DNA of 20,589 nt from a virus, in the IMG/VR virus record IMGVR_UViG_3300034121_000831, positions 1 to 20,589 of that record; one strand, 5' to 3'. The translations under genes and the position numbers were made by a program. Shown here piece by piece: positions 843-19,778 of this stretch (the first letter of the stretch is position 1; every line of letters begins with the position of its first letter). A model generated the notes under the pieces. That model did not search any database and was not told the origin of the DNA. It saw only the letters and a program-made list of their open reading frames with translations.

Positions 843-2198
843 ATGAAGGCGCCATTGGTGTCGAAGAACCGCGCGGCGGCTGAGCTGCGCGAGAAGGCCC
901 ACAAGATCCGGCACGATCTGGTCGACGCGACCAATTCGTACACGGCCGAGGAAGTGGAGAAGATGACGGGCGACATCCGCTCGCTCGAGATGCGGGCGCA
1001 GGCGGCCGCCGAGTTCACGCCTGATGCCGAAGTCGCGCGTCAGGGCGGCGACGAAGGGCTGGTGCGTGTCGATGCCGGCGGCGAGCGCACGGAGTTCGCC
1101 AACATGGGCGACGCCATGCAGGAAGTGCGGTCGACGATCGTGAACGCCTTTTCCAACGTGGGAAGCTACATCCGGGCGGCGACGCGCGGGCCGGCTAACG
1201 CGGCGGAAGCGGCGGCGCTGAAGCAGGTAGATCAGTTCACGCGTACGATCACGGGCTCAACGAACGGCGGCGAGTACCTGCTCCCGTTGACGCAGGTGCC
1301 GGAAATCTTCTCGGTGAGCAACCAGCAGCCGGGTTTGTTCCAGTACGCGCGGCGCTACAACGTGCCGGGCCGTTCGCTCCGCATCCCGTACTTGGTGCAG
1401 GACGAAGGCACGACGACGCTCAACCGTCCGATGGCGGGTAAGATCGCCAACGTGTCGATCGTCGGCGAAGGCGCCACGAAGCCGGTACGCGAGCCCACCT
1501 TTGGCCAGCGTCTGCTGACGATGTACAAGTATGCCGCGATCACGCAGTTCGGCGACGAATTGCTCGGCGACGACTTCACCGGCGAGCTGCCGAGCGAAGT
1601 GACGACGGCGGTTGGCGGTCAGATCGTGAACAAGATCAACGAAGATATCACGATCGACGGGTCGGGCTCGAGCGAGCCGCTCGGCGCGCTGAACGCCAAT
1701 AACGGTTCGCTGATCGCGGTGAACCGCGCCACGGCGAGCACGTTCACGGCGGCCGACGCGTTCTCGATGTACGAGAAGCACACGCACGGGGCGAACTCGG
1801 CGTGGATGATCTCGCGGCGCGTGCTGAACAAGCTGTTCGCGCTCCAGACGACCAATAACACGATGGTCACCTGGCTGGCGAACCTGCGTGACAAGCCGCA
1901 GATGCTGTTGCTCGGTCTGCCGGTGATCGTGACGGACCTGCTCCCGACGCTCGGCACCAAGGGCGACGTGGCGCTGGTGAACGGCGACTTTTACGCGATG
2001 GGCTTGCGTCAGGCGTTGACCGTTGAGTCGTCCATTCACGTCGCGTTCATCCAGGACGTGACCACCTACCGTTTCGTGGCGCGCGGCGGCGGTATCCCGC
2101 TCCCGACGTCGACGTACGCGTACAAGGTGGACGGCAGCGGCAACAAGGTGGACGCGCACTCGCCGTTCGTCGTGCTCGATGTCCCTGCTTCGTCCTGA
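843..2198 (+). CDS. Major capsid protein, HK97 fold, with N-terminal scaffold domain
   Basis: Structural protein of the icosahedral head. The first ~115 residues are charged and helical (for example KNRAAAELREKAHKI and TAEEVEKMTGDIRSLEMRAQ), the expected delta/scaffold domain removed by the upstream protease. Residues ~135-451 match the gp5-like core: GSTNGGEYLLPLTQVPEIF leads into the E-loop and P-domain, followed by the typical EPLGALNANNGS stretch, the WLANLRDKPQMLLLGLPVIVTD spine, and a C-terminal strand containing FIQDVTTYRFVARGGG. The length of 451 is normal for an uncleaved precursor. Weak GGGG lies upstream of the ATG. The next gene overlaps by 20 bases. I cannot tell whether HK97-style Lys-Asn crosslinking occurs. 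Confidence 0.95.
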   Translation: MKAPLVSKNRAAAELREKAHKIRHDLVDATNSYTAEEVEKMTGDIRSLEMRAQAAAEFTPDAEVARQGGDEGLVRVDAGGERTEFANMGDAMQEVRSTIVNAFSNVGSYIRAATRGPANAAEAAALKQVDQFTRTITGSTNGGEYLLPLTQVPEIFSVSNQQPGLFQYARRYNVPGRSLRIPYLVQDEGTTTLNRPMAGKIANVSIVGEGATKPVREPTFGQRLLTMYKYAAITQFGDELLGDDFTGELPSEVTTAVGGQIVNKINEDITIDGSGSSEPLGALNANNGSLIAVNRATASTFTAADAFSMYEKHTHGANSAWMISRRVLNKLFALQTTNNTMVTWLANLRDKPQMLLLGLPVIVTDLLPTLGTKGDVALVNGDFYAMGLRQALTVESSIHVAFIQDVTTYRFVARGGGIPLPTSTYAYKVDGSGNKVDAHSPFVVLDVPASS

Positions 2199-3516
2199 TC
2201 TGACGGGGCTGGATACGGTGTCCGGTGGGGTCGCGACGCTCGCGGCTCCACCGGAGGCCGGGCCGTTGACGCCAGTAATGGCGCTGACGGAGTGCATTAT
2301 CGGCGACACGCGGCGGATGGTGGGCGAGTGGTTTACCGTGCCGCGGTCGCGCGTGGTGGATCTGGTGGCGTTCGGGTTCGTGATCCCGGACGCGTATTTC
2401 GAGGCGATGCAGCCGAAAGCGGCGGCGCATTGGCGCACGGCGCAGCGGGAAGGGCTGACGGGTCAGTCGCTGGTGTGCGATGAGGCAACGGCGGCGAGGC
2501 TCTGGAACGACGCCGGCGGACGGGTGCTGACGCCGGACGGGTGGCACACAACAACATATGAGGCGGCGCCGGTCACCACGAACGCGGTGCGGGTGCTGCA
2601 ACTCACGCAATACGATCCCGGCTCAAGCGTGTATCGGTACCACAGCGCGGCCAATACGGTCGAGGGCGTGGTGTCGGCGATGGTGCGGTGGGGCGATAGC
2701 AACCCGCACTGTTCGTTGCGCCAATGGGACGGGCTGCTGCACAATCGCACGGTCGAGCTGCTGGCGATGACGGCCGACGTGATCCATTGTCATATGGATT
2801 GGCGGGCCCTGCATCACGATCTCCGGTACGCGCTCAAAGAAGGGCAGCGCGCGGCGATCACCTACCACGGGTCGGTCATGCCGGGCGACGAGGGGCGCGT
2901 CTTGGTGGATCACCTCAGCGACGAACGCATGGGCGCGATCCAGTTCGGGGCGCGTCCGTATCACGCTCGCTACGGCGTGCCGCGGTATCTGCCGATCCCG
3001 GTGCCGGTGGCGGACTATCAGGCGGCGGCGCGTGGTCGCGCGCGGGGGGACGTGCTGCGGATCGCGCACAGTCCGACGAAACGCGCGATCAAGGGGACGA
3101 CGGTGCTGCTTGACGCGGTTGAGTGGCTGCGCGAGTCCGAAGGGGTGCGGGCCGAGGTCGTGCTGATTGAGGATCTGCCGCACGGGGACGCGTTGCGGCT
3201 CAAGGCGAGCTGCGACGTCACGTTCGATTCGTTCTGGTTGGGGATGCAGGGCAGCGGCATCGAGGGCGCGGCGATGGGGCAGGCGGTGATCGCGGGCGAT
3301 TCGCAGGCGGCCGCGGAAGCGGCGGTCTTGAACGGGGGCGCGGTGCCGTGGACGTTTGCTAATGAACGGTACGGACTGATCGACGTCATCCGCCGGCTGG
3401 CGACGGACGCGACGTACTACGCGACGGAAGCGGCGCGGGTGCATGACTACGTCGCGCGGGTACATGATTATCGGGCGGTCGGCGCGCGGTATCGGACTTA
3501 TCTCGGGGAGTGCTAA
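2179..3516 (+). CDS. GT-B glycosyltransferase-like protein with an extra N-terminal domain
   Basis: Two parts are visible. Residues ~136-445 look like a GT4-type GT-B glycosyltransferase: the opening strand AVRVLQLTQYDPGSSVYRYH, the inter-strand motif ADVIHCHMDW (199-208), AITYHGS, then the C-terminal Rossmann half with RIAHSPTKRAIKGT (nucleotide-sugar region) and SGIEGAAMGQAVIAGD (359-374), where Glu363 sits at the usual donor-binding position. Residues ~34-130 precede the normal start of such enzymes and contain a compact segment (IIGDTRRMVGEWFTVP then LVAFGFVIPDA) resembling small beta-domains seen near phage head genes; I cannot name it. The start at 2179 overlaps the capsid gene by 20 bases; an internal ATG at 2278 is an alternative, and neither has a good ribosome site. 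Sugar donor and acceptor are unknown; its position suggests a head or virion substrate. Confidence 0.78.
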   Translation: MSLLRPDLTGLDTVSGGVATLAAPPEAGPLTPVMALTECIIGDTRRMVGEWFTVPRSRVVDLVAFGFVIPDAYFEAMQPKAAAHWRTAQREGLTGQSLVCDEATAARLWNDAGGRVLTPDGWHTTTYEAAPVTTNAVRVLQLTQYDPGSSVYRYHSAANTVEGVVSAMVRWGDSNPHCSLRQWDGLLHNRTVELLAMTADVIHCHMDWRALHHDLRYALKEGQRAAITYHGSVMPGDEGRVLVDHLSDERMGAIQFGARPYHARYGVPRYLPIPVPVADYQAAARGRARGDVLRIAHSPTKRAIKGTTVLLDAVEWLRESEGVRAEVVLIEDLPHGDALRLKASCDVTFDSFWLGMQGSGIEGAAMGQAVIAGDSQAAAEAAVLNGGAVPWTFANERYGLIDVIRRLATDATYYATEAARVHDYVARVHDYRAVGARYRTYLGEC

Positions 3517-6861: not shown

Positions 6862-8076
6862 ATGATCGTCGCTCGCGGCGTTATCAAACCGGTGTATGTG
6901 CCACCGGGGCCGCCTGAGAAACGCAGTGCGGTGCAGATCATCCGTACCGCGTTCCGTGCCGCGCCAATCGCCTATGCGATGTCGGCGGCGGTGGGCGCGT
7001 TCACGCTGGCCGGACAGCCGGCGACGTTATTGCGGGCGCAAGTCATGTCTGCGGACGCAGGTGCGTTTGCGGTCGATGGACAACCGGCGACGCTGTTTCG
7101 CAGTGTGCGGATGTCCGCGGACGCGGGCGCCTTTGTGCTCGATGGGCAGCCGGCCGATATGTATATCGGCGACCATCTCAACGTGCTGCCGGGCGCGTTT
7201 ACGCTCGAGGGGCAGGACGCGGGGCTGGTCGTTGCACGCCGGATGCTGTCAGGTGCGGGCGCGTTCACGCTGGACGGAAAGGCGGCTGGTCTTGCTTTTG
7301 CGCGGCGACTGTCGTCTGAGCCGGGCGCGTTCACGCTCGATGGGCAATCCGCGGATCTCCGCCGGTTCAAGGGGCTGTCGGCCGAGCCCGGCGCGTTTAC
7401 GCTCGACGGGCAGGCGGCCGCGCTCACGATCGCGCGCCAGATGGCGGCGGGCGCCGGGGCGTTCACGCTGGATGGACAAGCCGCTGGGCTCTCGGTTGCG
7501 CGGCGGATGTCGGGCGAGCCCGGCGCGTTTGTGCTCGACGGGCAAGCCGCGGAGCTCCGAAAGTTTAACGGCATCGTCGGCGCCGCCGGTGCGTTCGCGC
7601 TCGATGGGCAGGACGCTGGCCTTACCCTCGCGCGGCGACTCGCGGCGGATGTCGGCGCGTTCGTGCTCGATGGGCAGGACGCGACGCTGCGGAAAGGCGT
7701 CCGACGGCAGAGCGACGCGGGCGCGTTTACGCTCGACGGGCAGGCGGCGACGTTCCGGCGCGCGGTCCGGATGGCGGCCGGTGCGGGCGCGTTTGTGGTG
7801 GACGGGCAGAACGCCGACCTGTATATCAACGATCACCTCAACGCGTTGCCGGGCGCGTTTGTGGTGGCGGGTCAAGCCGCGCAATTGCGACGGGGTCGCG
7901 TGTTGGTCGCGGGCGCCGGCGCGTTTGTGCTGGACGGGCAGGACGCGCAGCTGGTGGTCGCAACCGTGTCGATTACGAGACTACGCGGTCGAGATCTGAG
8001 CGGGCCGGCGTACCTTAGCGTTGATCAGAGCGGGGCGGTGATGCTGAGCCGCGACACTTCAGAAAGTTACTGGTAA
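6862..8076 (+). CDS. Tandem 22-residue repeat protein (404 aa), probable fibre or surface protein
   Basis: Residues 45-374 consist of fifteen consecutive repeats, each 22 residues long with no insertions. The first half of each follows GAF-[TVA]-[LV]-x-G-Q-x-A, and the second half is L-x-x-x-R-x-[ML]-x-x-x followed by A or P. Each unit would give two short beta strands separated by turns, so a beta-solenoid or beta-hairpin stack is plausible. The N-terminal 44 residues (with PVYVPPGPPEK) and the last ~30 residues (with GPAYLSVDQSGAVMLSRD) are non-repetitive caps. I recall similar repeats in phage-related and alphaproteobacterial proteins of unknown function. No enzyme motif is visible. The gene is followed nine bases later by the next ORF. 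Confidence 0.85.
   Translation: MIVARGVIKPVYVPPGPPEKRSAVQIIRTAFRAAPIAYAMSAAVGAFTLAGQPATLLRAQVMSADAGAFAVDGQPATLFRSVRMSADAGAFVLDGQPADMYIGDHLNVLPGAFTLEGQDAGLVVARRMLSGAGAFTLDGKAAGLAFARRLSSEPGAFTLDGQSADLRRFKGLSAEPGAFTLDGQAAALTIARQMAAGAGAFTLDGQAAGLSVARRMSGEPGAFVLDGQAAELRKFNGIVGAAGAFALDGQDAGLTLARRLAADVGAFVLDGQDATLRKGVRRQSDAGAFTLDGQAATFRRAVRMAAGAGAFVVDGQNADLYINDHLNALPGAFVVAGQAAQLRRGRVLVAGAGAFVLDGQDAQLVVATVSITRLRGRDLSGPAYLSVDQSGAVMLSRDTSESYW
6994..7983 (+). repeat. Fifteen in-frame 66-bp coding repeats
   Basis: The repeat region of the 6862-8076 gene. Units begin at the GGC/GGT codon of each GAF motif every 66 bases from 6994. Sequence between units has diverged at third positions but the period is exact. 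Units 4-6 and 7-9 form a larger 198-bp period, and units 2-3 resemble units 12-13 at a 660-bp offset. Confidence 0.9.
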
Positions 8077-9391: not shown

Positions 9392-9955
9392 ATGACTGCA
9401 CCATTGACGGGCTTTACCTCGACGTTCCCGACCGACGTGCTGGTGGATTCCGGCGTGCTGCATGTCGGCGCGACCGTGTTCGGCGCGTTTCAGGGCGGCC
9501 TCAAGTTCGATCCTGGCGTCGAGTATCTCAACACGATGTTCGACGGCAAGCGGTCGCCGGTCCGGCTGCTCGATCGCAAGTCCGCGATGGCGCCGAAGAT
9601 CACGGGCACCGTGATCCAGCTGTCGACGACGAACGTGACGCAGATTGAGCCGGGCGCGACGGTGTCGGCGACGGGCGCGTGGACGGGCTCGACCAGCTAT
9701 CTGCCGAAGCGCGCGGCCTCCTATCTGGTGGCCGGCGACTATCTGACGGACGTTCGGTGTATATGGCTCCGCGGCGGCGGCAACTTCGTGCAGATCCGGT
9801 TCCCGTCGGCGCTGTTGCTTAAGTATGACGCGACGTCGCAGGACGGGCAGGAAGTGGCGATCTCGCTCGAGATCGAAGCGCGGCTGGATATGTCGGTGTC
9901 GGGCGCAAACGTCGGCGACGCGCCGTACCGGATTGAGTATATCGCCAGCGTCTAA
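9392..9955 (+). CDS. Major tail tube protein
   Basis: Expected to polymerise as the tail tube. The 187-residue protein follows the terminator and precedes the chaperone pair, the fixed siphophage order. It begins with TFPTDVLVDSGVLHVGATV and FGAFQGGLKFDPGVEYLN, typical of tube proteins whose first strands include a 'D/G-V-L-x-x-x' region, then has KRSPVRLLDRKSAMAPKITGTV, and ends with a paired set of strands (VAISLEIEARLDMS, YRIEYIASV). No Ig-like C-terminal add-on is present. The ribosome site is weak, but the gap holds the hairpin described above. Confidence 0.82.
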   Translation: MTAPLTGFTSTFPTDVLVDSGVLHVGATVFGAFQGGLKFDPGVEYLNTMFDGKRSPVRLLDRKSAMAPKITGTVIQLSTTNVTQIEPGATVSATGAWTGSTSYLPKRAASYLVAGDYLTDVRCIWLRGGGNFVQIRFPSALLLKYDATSQDGQEVAISLEIEARLDMSVSGANVGDAPYRIEYIASV

Positions 9956-9999: not shown

Positions 10000-10314
10000 A
10001 TGTCGACGATTGATCTCGATGCGCTGGTGAACACGGCGCGACTCCCGAAGGTGCAGCTTTGCGGCCGTGAGATGACCGTGCATCCGCTGACGGGCGCCGC
10101 GGCGCACCGGCTGGCCATCGTGCAGGACGGCGACCCGACGGGCGCGGGGATGCTGGGCGCGCTGCTCGACGTCATCGCGGTGCTACTCCCGGCGCTGACG
10201 GCTGAGGAACGCGCCGGGTTGACGGTCGACCAGATCGGCGCGATCGTGCAGCTCTCGCGCGGTCAGGTGGCCGAGGTCGAGCAGCAGATCGCGGAGATGG
10301 CGGCAAAAAACTAA
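10000..10314 (+). CDS. Tail assembly chaperone (lambda gpG-like, unshifted product)
   Basis: Short form of the tail assembly chaperone, 104 residues: MSTIDLDALVNTARLPKVQL, a strand CGREMTVHPLTGAAAHRLA, then hydrophobic helices with DVIAVLLPALTAEERAGL and a helical, Glu/Gln-rich end VAEVEQQIAEMAAKN. It sits between the tail tube and the tape measure genes as gpG does, and terminates at TAA 10312-10314 directly after an A AAA AAC slippery heptamer. AGGA precedes the ATG. Chaperones of this type bind the tape measure protein and recruit tube subunits. The family is highly variable, so identification rests on position, length and the frameshift. Confidence 0.85.
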   Translation: MSTIDLDALVNTARLPKVQLCGREMTVHPLTGAAAHRLAIVQDGDPTGAGMLGALLDVIAVLLPALTAEERAGLTVDQIGAIVQLSRGQVAEVEQQIAEMAAKN

Positions 10315-10739
10315 CGCCGGCCAGTGGATCGGACGCGACGCCGGCGGGCGGCGATGCGGTCACGATTCGCTGGTCGATCGCGGAATACATACAACGCGTA
10401 ATCATCGAGACCGCCACGGCGACCGGACAATCGGTGCGCGCTGTGGCGGCTGAGTCGTTTGCGCTGACGTTGTGGACGTGGGCGAGCGTACGCCAGGCGG
10501 CGCAAGAGGCGGCGGTCGAGCGGTTAGGGGAACGGACGGATCTCGCGGGGCTGGTCGCGTTCGCGTTCCACGACCCGTCGAAATTGCAGCAGGCCGAGAT
10601 GCGGTACTTGAGCGCGGCGGGCCGGCTGTCGTCGATGCTGGACGCGACGCGGTCGCGGTTGACCGGGTTGTCGGAACGAATGCAGGCGGCGCAAGCGATC
10701 CACGAACATCAGCGAGCGGCCGAGCCGCGGGAGGGGTAA
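10000..10739 (+). CDS. Tail assembly chaperone, frameshifted long form (lambda gpGT-like)
   Basis: Joined product of the 10000 frame up to AAC 10309-10311 and the -1 frame from 10311 to 10739. It would be 246 residues: 104 shared with the short form plus 142 from the extension. The extension starts LTPASGSDATPAGGDAVTIR, has a helical centre (ESFALTLWTWASVRQAAQEA, LAGLVAFAFHDPSKLQQAEM) and a Gln/Arg/Glu-rich end. The -1 frame has no stop between 10311 and 10739, and a separate start in it (GTG 10434) would have no role in the usual gpG/gpGT scheme. In lambda, the ratio of the two forms is needed for tail assembly. Confidence 0.82.
10305..10311 (+). promoter_or_regulatory. Programmed -1 frameshift slippery site (A AAA AAC)
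   Basis: In the zero frame the codons are GCA AAA AAC TAA (10303-10314), so A10305-C10311 is a textbook X XXY YYZ heptamer in the correct phase. After a -1 slip, translation resumes at CTA 10311-10313 and remains open to 10739. This is the arrangement of lambda G/GT-type chaperones. Confidence 0.85.
10311..10739 (+). CDS. T-domain reading frame of the chaperone pair
   Basis: This is the -1 frame portion listed separately because it would otherwise be annotated as a free-standing ORF from GTG 10434 (101 residues). It lacks a good ribosome site at 10434 (upstream GACCGGACAATCG). In lambda-type phages the T domain contacts the tail tube protein. Its TAA (10737-10739) is followed three bases later by the tape measure ATG. 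Confidence 0.7.
   Translation, partial: LTPASGSDATPAGGDAVTIRWSIAEYIQRVIIETATATGQSVRAVAAESFALTLWTWASVRQAAQEAAVERLGERTDLAGLVAFAFHDPSKLQQAEMRYLSAAGRLSSMLDATRSRLTGLSERMQAAQAIHEHQRAAEPREG
10315..10346 (+). promoter_or_regulatory. GC hairpin 3' of the slippery site (possible frameshift stimulator)
   Basis: CGCCGGC at 10315-10321 pairs perfectly with GCCGGCG at 10340-10346, seven G/C pairs with an 18-base loop, beginning three bases after the slippery heptamer. A hairpin just downstream of a slip site commonly stimulates -1 frameshifting, although the spacer is shorter than the usual 5-8 bases. Confidence 0.5.
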
Positions 10740-10742
10740 CGA

Positions 10743-12686
10743 ATGGACGTCTTTGCGTTAACGATGCGGCTAAAGGAGGACGGCGCCGGCGCGGTGAAGG
10801 CGTCCGTCGACAAGCTGCGCGACTCCATGAACACGGCGACGACTGGCGCGAACAAACTCGACGCTGGGATTAGTGGATTATCGTCGGTCATGACCAAACT
10901 AGGAAGCGCGCTCGCAATCGGGGCGACGTTTAAAAAGTTCATCGACGCGACGTCTGAGGCGCAATTTGCGCAGGCGCAGTTGCAAAGCGCGCTGAAGTCG
11001 ACGGGGTTTGCGGCCGGCCAGAGCATGACGGCGTTGAACGATCACGCGGTCGCGTTGCAGCGGATGACGGCGTTCGGTGACGATGCCGTGAGCGGGGCGC
11101 AGGCGCTGTTGCTCACGTTTACCAAGATCCGCGGCGACGTGTTCCCGAAGGCGACGACGGCCGTGCTCGACATGGCGCAGGCAATGGGGACGGACCTTAA
11201 GTCGGCGGCGTTGCAGGTCGGGAAGGCGTTAAACGATCCCGTGCTCGGGGTCGGCGCGCTCGCTCGGGCGGGTGTCCAGTTCAGCGAGCAGCAGAAGGAG
11301 ATGATTAAGTCGCTGGTCGAGACGGGCAACGTCGCGAAGGCGCAGGCAATCATACTGAAAGAGCTTGAAACGCAGTTTGGTGGGTCAGCGGAAGCGGCGC
11401 GCAAGACGTTGGGCGGCGCGTTGGCGGCGCTGAAGGAGTCGTTTGGCGATCTGTTTGAGGTGTCGGATACCGGGACAAAGGACGTCGTGATCGGCATTAA
11501 CGCAATTATTGACGTGCTGACGCGACTGAAGTCGTGGATGGACCGCAATAACGTGTTCGGCGTTTTGGTGCGCGAGGTCGGGCTTGTCGCGCAGGCAATT
11601 GGCGACACGGTTAAATGGTTCCAGATGCTCGGGCAGCAGTCGGATGCGACGGGCAGGTTTATTGACGGCATGGCGGAAGTCATGCGCGGCGTTAATACGC
11701 TGAGCAAGGAAACGATCGCGAACGGTCGAGCAATGATGGCAGCGGCGCGCGAGGAATATTCCGCAATTCAGCAGCGCATGGGCGCTCTTATTACGGAATC
11801 AAAAAGCCGAGAAACGGCAACGCGCGCGATGTCAAATTACAAGAGCGTACTGGACGGCGTGCTCGGGTCTGTCACGTCTGATTACAACAAGCTCGGTCAA
11901 CAGGCGTCGGCGTTGAACGCGGTAGCGGATGCGACCAAGAAGGTGACGGTTGCTGAATCGGCGGCGCATCTGGCAAAGATGGCGCAATTCAGTCAACAGA
12001 AACTGCTCGATAAAAGCGGGTTCTCAGTTGCAGCCGTGTCGAGCGCAAGTGTTAAGATGCCGCGGTTCGACGCCGCGTCTATAACGACGCCTCTTGATAC
12101 CATAAAAGCGGAGTCACTGGCGCGTTTTGAAGAATTTAACGCGTCACTTGGTACGCAATTACGAGAAGGGCTTATCAACACGTTTGCGGATTCATTTGGT
12201 GCTGGGTTTGAAGCGTGGGCCAAAACAGGAAAAATCAGCGAAGGGTTTAAGGCGTTCGGGAGCGCGATGCTGTCCGGTTTAGGTGGGATGCTGCAATCGT
12301 TTGGAAAGCAGGCGCTGTTAGCGTCGACGTTGATGGCCAAGCTGATGGAGTCGTTCGGGTCGTTGAACCCGTACGTAGCGGTCGCTGCTTCGATCGCGCT
12401 GATCGCGCTCGGCGGCGCGCTGAAGGGTGCGGCGTCGTCGGCGTTTGGTGGTGGTGGGCAAAGCGCGAACGTGTCGACGATGGGCGGCGGGTACGGCGGC
12501 GGGTCGATGCGCTCGAGCGCGCAGACGTTGCCGACGATCACGTACGGGCCGACGTCCGCGGCGTCCGGGTCCGCGATCCGGCCGGCGTCGGCGATGAACG
12601 TCACGATTATCGGGCCGAACGATCCGAGCGCGCAGCGAGCAATGCAGGAGCTGATCATGAAGGCGGACCGCCGGGGGAACGTATAA
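10743..12686 (+). CDS. Tail tape measure protein
   Basis: Sets tail length and occupies the tube lumen until ejection. The 647-residue protein opens with a helical segment MDVFALTMRLKEDGAGAVKA and carries a recognisable prophage tail tape-measure segment at ~69-240 (SEAQFAQAQLQSALKSTGF, then GAQALLLTFTKIRGDVFPKA and VQFSEQQKEMIKSL). A hydrophobic helix lies at ~542-560 (NPYVAVAASIALIALGGAL), typical of tape measure proteins. The C-terminus is Gly/Ser-rich. At about 0.15 nm per residue the tail would be near 100 nm. A GGAGGGG ribosome site precedes the ATG. The stretch ~11750-12260 has lower GC and different codon use than the rest. Confidence 0.93.
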   Translation: MDVFALTMRLKEDGAGAVKASVDKLRDSMNTATTGANKLDAGISGLSSVMTKLGSALAIGATFKKFIDATSEAQFAQAQLQSALKSTGFAAGQSMTALNDHAVALQRMTAFGDDAVSGAQALLLTFTKIRGDVFPKATTAVLDMAQAMGTDLKSAALQVGKALNDPVLGVGALARAGVQFSEQQKEMIKSLVETGNVAKAQAIILKELETQFGGSAEAARKTLGGALAALKESFGDLFEVSDTGTKDVVIGINAIIDVLTRLKSWMDRNNVFGVLVREVGLVAQAIGDTVKWFQMLGQQSDATGRFIDGMAEVMRGVNTLSKETIANGRAMMAAAREEYSAIQQRMGALITESKSRETATRAMSNYKSVLDGVLGSVTSDYNKLGQQASALNAVADATKKVTVAESAAHLAKMAQFSQQKLLDKSGFSVAAVSSASVKMPRFDAASITTPLDTIKAESLARFEEFNASLGTQLREGLINTFADSFGAGFEAWAKTGKISEGFKAFGSAMLSGLGGMLQSFGKQALLASTLMAKLMESFGSLNPYVAVAASIALIALGGALKGAASSAFGGGGQSANVSTMGGGYGGGSMRSSAQTLPTITYGPTSAASGSAIRPASAMNVTIIGPNDPSAQRAMQELIMKADRRGNV

Positions 12687-18626: not shown

Positions 18627-18659
18627 GCGGGCTCACCTTTGATGCAGGAGGCGCACCGG

Positions 18660-19778
18660 ATGCGGCTTCATGTACTTGGCATACCTCACACGGTCACGGA
18701 CGCGGCGTGGTCGCATTGCGCCTTCACGCAGAAGGTTCGGCGGCTGGCGCCGATGTTGCGCGCGTTCGGGCATCACGTCACGCATTACGGCGTGGGCGGC
18801 TCGAGCGCGGGCGCGGACGTCGACGTGGTGCTTATGGATCAGGACGAGCACCAGCGGCTGCTCGGGCATCCGTACGAGCACGGCACGGCGTTCTACGGCG
18901 CGGACGCGGTCGACGGGAACGACTGCTACCGGCAGTGGAACCATTACGCGCGCGAGGAGCTGCGCGAGCGGGTGCAGCCGGGCGACTTGATCTTGTGTCC
19001 GTTCGGGCACGCGCACGGCGCCGCGGTCCGGGGGCTCCCGGTGCTGGCGGCCGGGGCGGGCGCGATCGAGTCGGGGATCGGGTATTTCGAGACGATGCTC
19101 CCTTGGCGGGTCTACGAATCGTACGCGGTCCGGCACGCGGTGATGGCAAAAGAGGGCCGGTACGGGGTCACGGTAGAGTCGAACCGGCTCGAGTTCGTGG
19201 CGCCCAATTACTACGAGCCGACGGAATGGCCGGCGGGCGAGTGGATGGACCGATCGGGCGCGCCGGTCGTCTTCCTCGGGCGGCTGACGGAGGGCAAGGG
19301 GGTGCCGATCGTGCTCGATGTGGCGCGGCGGCGGACGGACGTGTTGTTTGTCCTGGCGGGTCAGGGCGACATCGACGCGTTCGGCGAGCTGCCGTCAAAC
19401 GTCACGTACCTTGGCGCGATCGGGCAGGAGCGCGCGGCGCTGTTGGGGTCGGCGCGGGCGATCATTGCACCGTCGCGGTATTGCGAGCCGTTCGGGGGCG
19501 CGGTCGTTGAGGCGGCGATGTGCGGCACGCCGGCGATTACGTCTGACTTCGGCGCGTTCGCGGAGACGGTGCAACACGGGATTACGGGCATCCGCGCGCA
19601 GACGCTCAACCAGTTCGCGTCGGCCGTCGACAAGGTGCTCGAGCTCGATCGCGGGTATATCCGAGCGCGAGCGATTCGGTTGTATTCGATCCCGAAGGTG
19701 GGCCGGATCTATGACGATCTGTTGACGGTCTGCGCGGAGCGGCTGGAGTCGGGGACGTTCCCGGCGGCCGGATGGTAA
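18660..19778 (+). CDS. Glycosyltransferase, GT4-like
   Basis: A 372-residue GT-B glycosyltransferase that would transfer a sugar from a nucleotide donor. It opens MRLHVLGIPHTVTDAAWSHC then AFTQKVRRLAPMLRAFGHHV, the acceptor-side Rossmann start, and has the C-terminal donor domain with VVFLGRLTEGKGVPIVLDVA, LFVLAGQGDI and the E-x7-E motif region SRYCEPFGGAVVEAAMCGTP (Glu at EPFGG and VVEA), followed by TSDFGAFAETVQHG. I chose ATG 18660 because AGGAGG at 18646-18651 is placed ideally; a TTG at 18639 and ATG at 18642 would add seven or fewer residues and lack a site. Homologues of this opening are common in environmental phage contigs, as I recall. Located between tail fibre and lysis genes, its substrate may be a tail or capsid protein. 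Confidence 0.88.
   Translation: MRLHVLGIPHTVTDAAWSHCAFTQKVRRLAPMLRAFGHHVTHYGVGGSSAGADVDVVLMDQDEHQRLLGHPYEHGTAFYGADAVDGNDCYRQWNHYAREELRERVQPGDLILCPFGHAHGAAVRGLPVLAAGAGAIESGIGYFETMLPWRVYESYAVRHAVMAKEGRYGVTVESNRLEFVAPNYYEPTEWPAGEWMDRSGAPVVFLGRLTEGKGVPIVLDVARRRTDVLFVLAGQGDIDAFGELPSNVTYLGAIGQERAALLGSARAIIAPSRYCEPFGGAVVEAAMCGTPAITSDFGAFAETVQHGITGIRAQTLNQFASAVDKVLELDRGYIRARAIRLYSIPKVGRIYDDLLTVCAERLESGTFPAAGW

Follow-up and report, generated by a model that had tools for sequence, protein, structure and literature searches.

The tail chaperone genes of phage lambda are expressed through a -1 frameshift that yields G and GT, and homologous genes in other long-tailed phages do the same (Levin 1993; Xu 2004; reviewed in PMC5009743). 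In lambda, G binds the tape measure and T binds the major tail protein, and both are absent from virions (PMC5009743). Work on lambda G/GT and on further tail chaperones has already described this mechanism, the slippery heptamer, and how the heptamer adjoins the stop codon. For two tail-chaperone genes, shifting of 6-7% was reported (PMC3711429). An AAAAAAC site in tail chaperone genes was published for gp12/gp13 of Acinetobacter phage vB_AbaS_Loki, with IME_AB3 included in the same paper (PMC5313236). Tail-chaperone frameshifting is also found in the haloarchaeal viruses HCTV-1, -2, and -5, with an AAAAAAC site in HCTV-2 (PMC5009743).

The DNA analyzed here (the window) is an entire IMG/VR viral record, 20,589 bases long with 65% G+C and possibly itself a fragment. 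It almost certainly carries tail assembly chaperone genes of the lambda type that are expressed through programmed -1 ribosomal frameshifting. As in lambda, a short G lies between the major tail protein and the tape measure, an in-phase heptamer is near the G stop, and T adjoins the tape measure gene. Unlike lambda, the locus has a strong predicted hairpin 6 nt after the heptamer, and our searches found no sequence-level protein family in common with lambda. Loki gp12/gp13 and IME_AB3 come from different phages, and what they share with the window is the tail-chaperone frameshift. HCTV-1, -2, and -5 differ in having archaeal hosts, and their likeness to the window is in the frameshift signal.

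Layout of the locus

The two open reading frames sit between genes matching major tail protein and tape measure families, the arrangement of lambda-type G/GT loci (Table 1). The end of G (10303-10314) reads GCA AAA AAC TAA in the zero frame, bearing out the first-pass annotation, which had placed A AAA AAC in exact X XXY YYZ phase before the G stop. The first codon after a -1 slip is CTA at 10311, and the T peptide starts L T P A S. Products of 104 and 246 residues had been proposed, and the lengths agree (104 + 142 = 246 aa). The -1 frame is open as claimed, though the 143 codons given for it include the stop and the sense codons number 142. Nor does the frame reach the base before the tape measure gene: the T stop is the TAA at 10737-10739, and three bases separate it from the ATG of the tape measure gene (10743).

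Table 1. Features of the G/T locus and its flanking genes in the window.
Feature	Position	Strand	Remarks
G, tail assembly chaperone ORF, upstream member	10000..10314	+	ATG 10000; 104 aa zero-frame product; phrog_893 E 2.8e-5; possible fold resemblance to viral tail assembly chaperones
Slippery heptamer A AAA AAC	10305..10311	+	X XXY YYZ phase; AAAAAAC or GGGAAAN at or near the equivalent place in 67/67 junction-covering relatives
TAA stop of G	10312..10314	+	directly 3' of heptamer
T, -1-frame extension	10311..10739	+	142 codons + stop; GT fusion 246 aa; homologous T in 68 viral loci; 39 invariant columns
Predicted RNA hairpin, probable frameshift stimulator	10318..10376	+	6 nt 3' of heptamer; RNA folding, synonymous-codon shuffles, counterparts in most relatives
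CGGAG, weak Shine-Dalgarno-like stretch	10292..10296	+	about 8 nt upstream of heptamer; possible minor stimulator, tentative; also encodes conserved residues
Major tail protein gene (context)	9392..9955	+	phrog_885 E 1.9e-10
Tape measure protein gene (context)	10743..12686	+	phrog_27166 E 5.6e-38; strong Shine-Dalgarno GGGAGGGG within last T codons

Several other features of the window were recorded. The Shine-Dalgarno of the tape measure gene (10723-10742) is very strong, with a duplex energy of -10.8 kcal/mol. A 404-aa ORF (6862-8076, + strand) between the head-tail and tail genes is built from some 14 copies of a unit around 'GAFTLDGQAA', with a period of 66 nt and its multiples; it has no PHROG match and is overlapped by a 367-aa ORF in another frame (6896-7999). 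Downstream of the tail genes, 18639-19778 (+) encodes a glycosyltransferase (phrog_3408, E 5.4e-47). A 445-aa ORF between the capsid and head-tail adaptor genes (2179-3516, +) looks glycosyltransferase-like by eye and has no PHROG match.

The slippery heptamer and the translation of T

As a bare string AAAAAAC is unremarkable, with two occurrences in the window against 0.79 expected. Among the 19 ORFs of the window taken as genes there are four in-phase X XXY YYZ heptamers with Y being A or T. Only that at 10305-10311 is at a stop codon, and only it is followed by a long -1 frame (142 codons, against 34, 36, and 41 at the other three). A point against the frameshift reading is that in E. coli, which may not be the host, the ribosome shifts far less readily on A_AAA_AAC than on A_AAA_AAG (PMC5009743).

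Relatives of T were collected from IMG/VR: 38 loci in a search with T itself and 68 in a search with the T alignment. The junction is covered in 67 of the 68, L099 being cut off and left out, and these 67 represent 45 distinct sequences besides the window, or 46 with it. In all 67, T is in the -1 frame relative to G and a slippery heptamer lies in phase; none of them has lost it, such a loss in close relatives being one of the outcomes that the first-pass annotation had named as contradicting the frameshift. Because the in-phase heptamer is conserved throughout, chance is excluded as its explanation. The heptamer is at the G stop or shortly before it, the largest distance being 24 nt (L070). 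Of the 46 distinct sequences, 34 have AAAAAAC, eight GGGAAAC, three GGGAAAA, and one GGGAAAG; the first-pass annotation was unaware that GGGAAAN replaces AAAAAAC within the same family. Three distinct relatives (L103, L110, and L113) have a TGA that closes the -1 frame 6 nt upstream of where T begins. This TGA overlaps the start of the A run and leaves two codons (AAA AAA) before T, so in these three a shift from G to T is possible only on the heptamer.

The heptamer types also bear on whether RNA polymerase, rather than the ribosome, slips on the A run, producing mRNAs with altered A counts in which G and T are joined in the transcript. The window has six A's and many relatives have seven, as such slippage might favor, but six is short for polymerase slippage. 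Moreover, GGGAAAC, GGGAAAA, or GGGAAAG takes the same place in 12 of the 46 distinct sequences, in the same X XXY YYZ phase and without a long homopolymer. That A-rich and G-rich heptamers replace each other within a protein family agrees with tandem tRNA slippage but not with polymerase slippage on an A tract. The exact phase and the downstream RNA fold are likewise expected for ribosomal slippage, whereas slippage of the polymerase would not need them. We therefore disfavor transcriptional slippage and rate it highly improbable.

Homopolymers are also prone to sequencing error, and the frame break could in principle reflect such an error, or gene decay, in a single assembly. The identical break is present in many independent metagenome assemblies, including those with G/A heptamers, and in two cultured phages. 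These are Synechococcus phage S-CBS3 and Dinoroseobacter phage R4C, which are among the best tape-measure matches. In S-CBS3 (L129, 1792-2501), gp12 ends in AAAAAAC TGA and a -1 frame of 111 codons is open to the tape-measure start. In R4C (L128, 1985-2478), gp011 ends in GGGAAAC TGA and is followed by a -1 frame of 49 codons up to the tape measure. S-CBS3 gp12-gp13 and R4C gp011 thus resemble the window in having a related tape measure, a heptamer and TGA ending G, and an open -1 frame. They are unlike it in giving no tblastn match to its G or T, as was the case for all 50,697 phage records searched, and in R4C the extension is just 49 aa long. A fusion is annotated in neither record. An error or a decayed gene is refuted by the relatives, and we reject it as having next to no probability.

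The ribosomal frameshift must also be weighed against T being a separate gene, translated from its own start, such as GTG 10434 or 10443, after termination of G, with the heptamer incidental. A gene caller would list GTG 10434. Its anti-Shine-Dalgarno duplex energy is -3.2 kcal/mol against a background mean of -3.3, however, and no independent start signal of the kind the first-pass annotation had asked about was found there. The T frame of the window has no ATG, GTG, or TTG from -105 to +123 nt around the first T codon, and the first one in the -1 frame comes only at T codon 42. Conservation begins well before that. In the T alignment the conserved residues start at residue 17, with V17, R29, V30, and A35 invariant. 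Over T codons 17-41, which are upstream of 10434, dN/dS is 0.10 against L009, 0.33 against L010, and 0.26 against L013, and there are no amino-acid changes against L007. Since these codons are under purifying selection and encode invariant residues, they appear to be translated although they lack a usual upstream start. The in-phase heptamer kept in 67 of 67 relatives also speaks against a separate gene. Judged from these sequences, independent initiation does not explain T; we reject it and consider it very improbable.

RNA signals around the heptamer

RNA folding predicts a long imperfect stem starting six bases 3' of the heptamer, which the first-pass annotation had missed. Among 65-nt windows across the GT region, the one holding this hairpin (10318-10376) is the most stable. 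It is more stable than synonymous-codon shuffles that preserve the T protein (z -2.83, p 0.005), and hairpins are found at the equivalent place in most relatives.

We compared the fold in 23 representatives, which share less than 85% identity over the junction. The mean folding energy of 45-nt windows was lowest just 3' of the heptamer, at -22.5 and -23.4 kcal/mol for offsets 0 and 6, compared to -9.5 to -17.7 kcal/mol elsewhere in the region. In 10 of the 23 the most stable 45-nt window starts -3 to +12 from the heptamer end. The combined synonymous-shuffle test gave a Stouffer z of -8.5, to be read as an indication and not as an exact probability as the representatives are related. In the same test the hairpin was not significant in four representatives (L067, L089, L102, and L124). 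Column-by-column covariation is sparse, with only a few compensatory pairs, because the stems occupy different registers in different subgroups. The hairpin is probably a frameshift stimulator. T residues 1-15, which the hairpin region encodes, are predicted to be disordered (pLDDT below 50), and such disorder would leave space for an RNA signal.

A possible second stimulator is the CGGAG upstream of the heptamer, with a duplex energy of -6.6 kcal/mol. We give it little weight, as it also encodes conserved residues, and any minor stimulating role is tentative.

Taken together, this uncultured phage family likely uses a two-part signal, made up of a heptamer alternating between AAAAAAC and GGGAAAN and a hairpin that follows it within a few nucleotides. 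The hairpin would lie in a sequence-variable, probably disordered linker of T, and function would maintain it even though sub-lineages differ in its sequence and register.

Probable chaperone identity and proposed mechanism

G matches phrog_893, a family of unknown function, and so does each of the 19 sequences in the G alignment. Matches to the Pfam family Phage_TAC_7 are weak and confined to relatives (best E 0.0095). T has no PHROG below E 0.01 and no significant Pfam match, and no relative of T was found in the bacterial genomes searched. Searches of the PDB by sequence gave nothing credible for G or T.

The structure model of G, a confident one (pLDDT 86.8), has as its best BFVD match a protein annotated 'Tail assembly chaperone' (E 4.1e-3, TM 0.62/0.55). 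Many further BFVD matches of the model carry the same name, and neither they nor the best match reach E 0.001. The G model had no match at E <= 0.001 in a fold search of the PDB, and the T model gave nothing significant in BFVD. The tail chaperone identity proposed in the first-pass annotation thus fits by position, between phrog_885 and phrog_27166, and by the best fold match. Position, frameshift, and fold taken together are the grounds for labeling G a chaperone, and from them we infer a chaperone function for G/GT.

That annotation had also proposed a lambda G/GT-type frameshift, and this interpretation is supported by the frames, by the phase of the heptamer and its conservation in all 67 relatives covering the junction, by the selection acting on the -1-frame protein ahead of any usual start codon, and by the position-specific predicted RNA fold. 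Most ribosomes would terminate G at the TAA at 10312. A minority would pause on A AAA AAC owing to the hairpin six nucleotides downstream, move back by one base together with the two tRNAs, and continue through T to give the 246-aa GT. If lambda is a guide, the tape measure may be coated by G along with the G portion of GT, and the major tail protein may be recruited by the T portion. We infer the slippage itself, its efficiency, and the stimulating role of the hairpin.

The mechanism is a textbook one, ordinary for tailed phages and found here in a new virus. To it this analysis adds many conserved junctions, the exchange of heptamers, and the hairpin. Two seemingly separate ORFs become a single gene that gives two products, and the phage family concerned has no curated annotation for T. 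The 46 distinct junctions, with their natural heptamer swaps and recurrent hairpin, are material for studying how tail-chaperone frameshifting is tuned.
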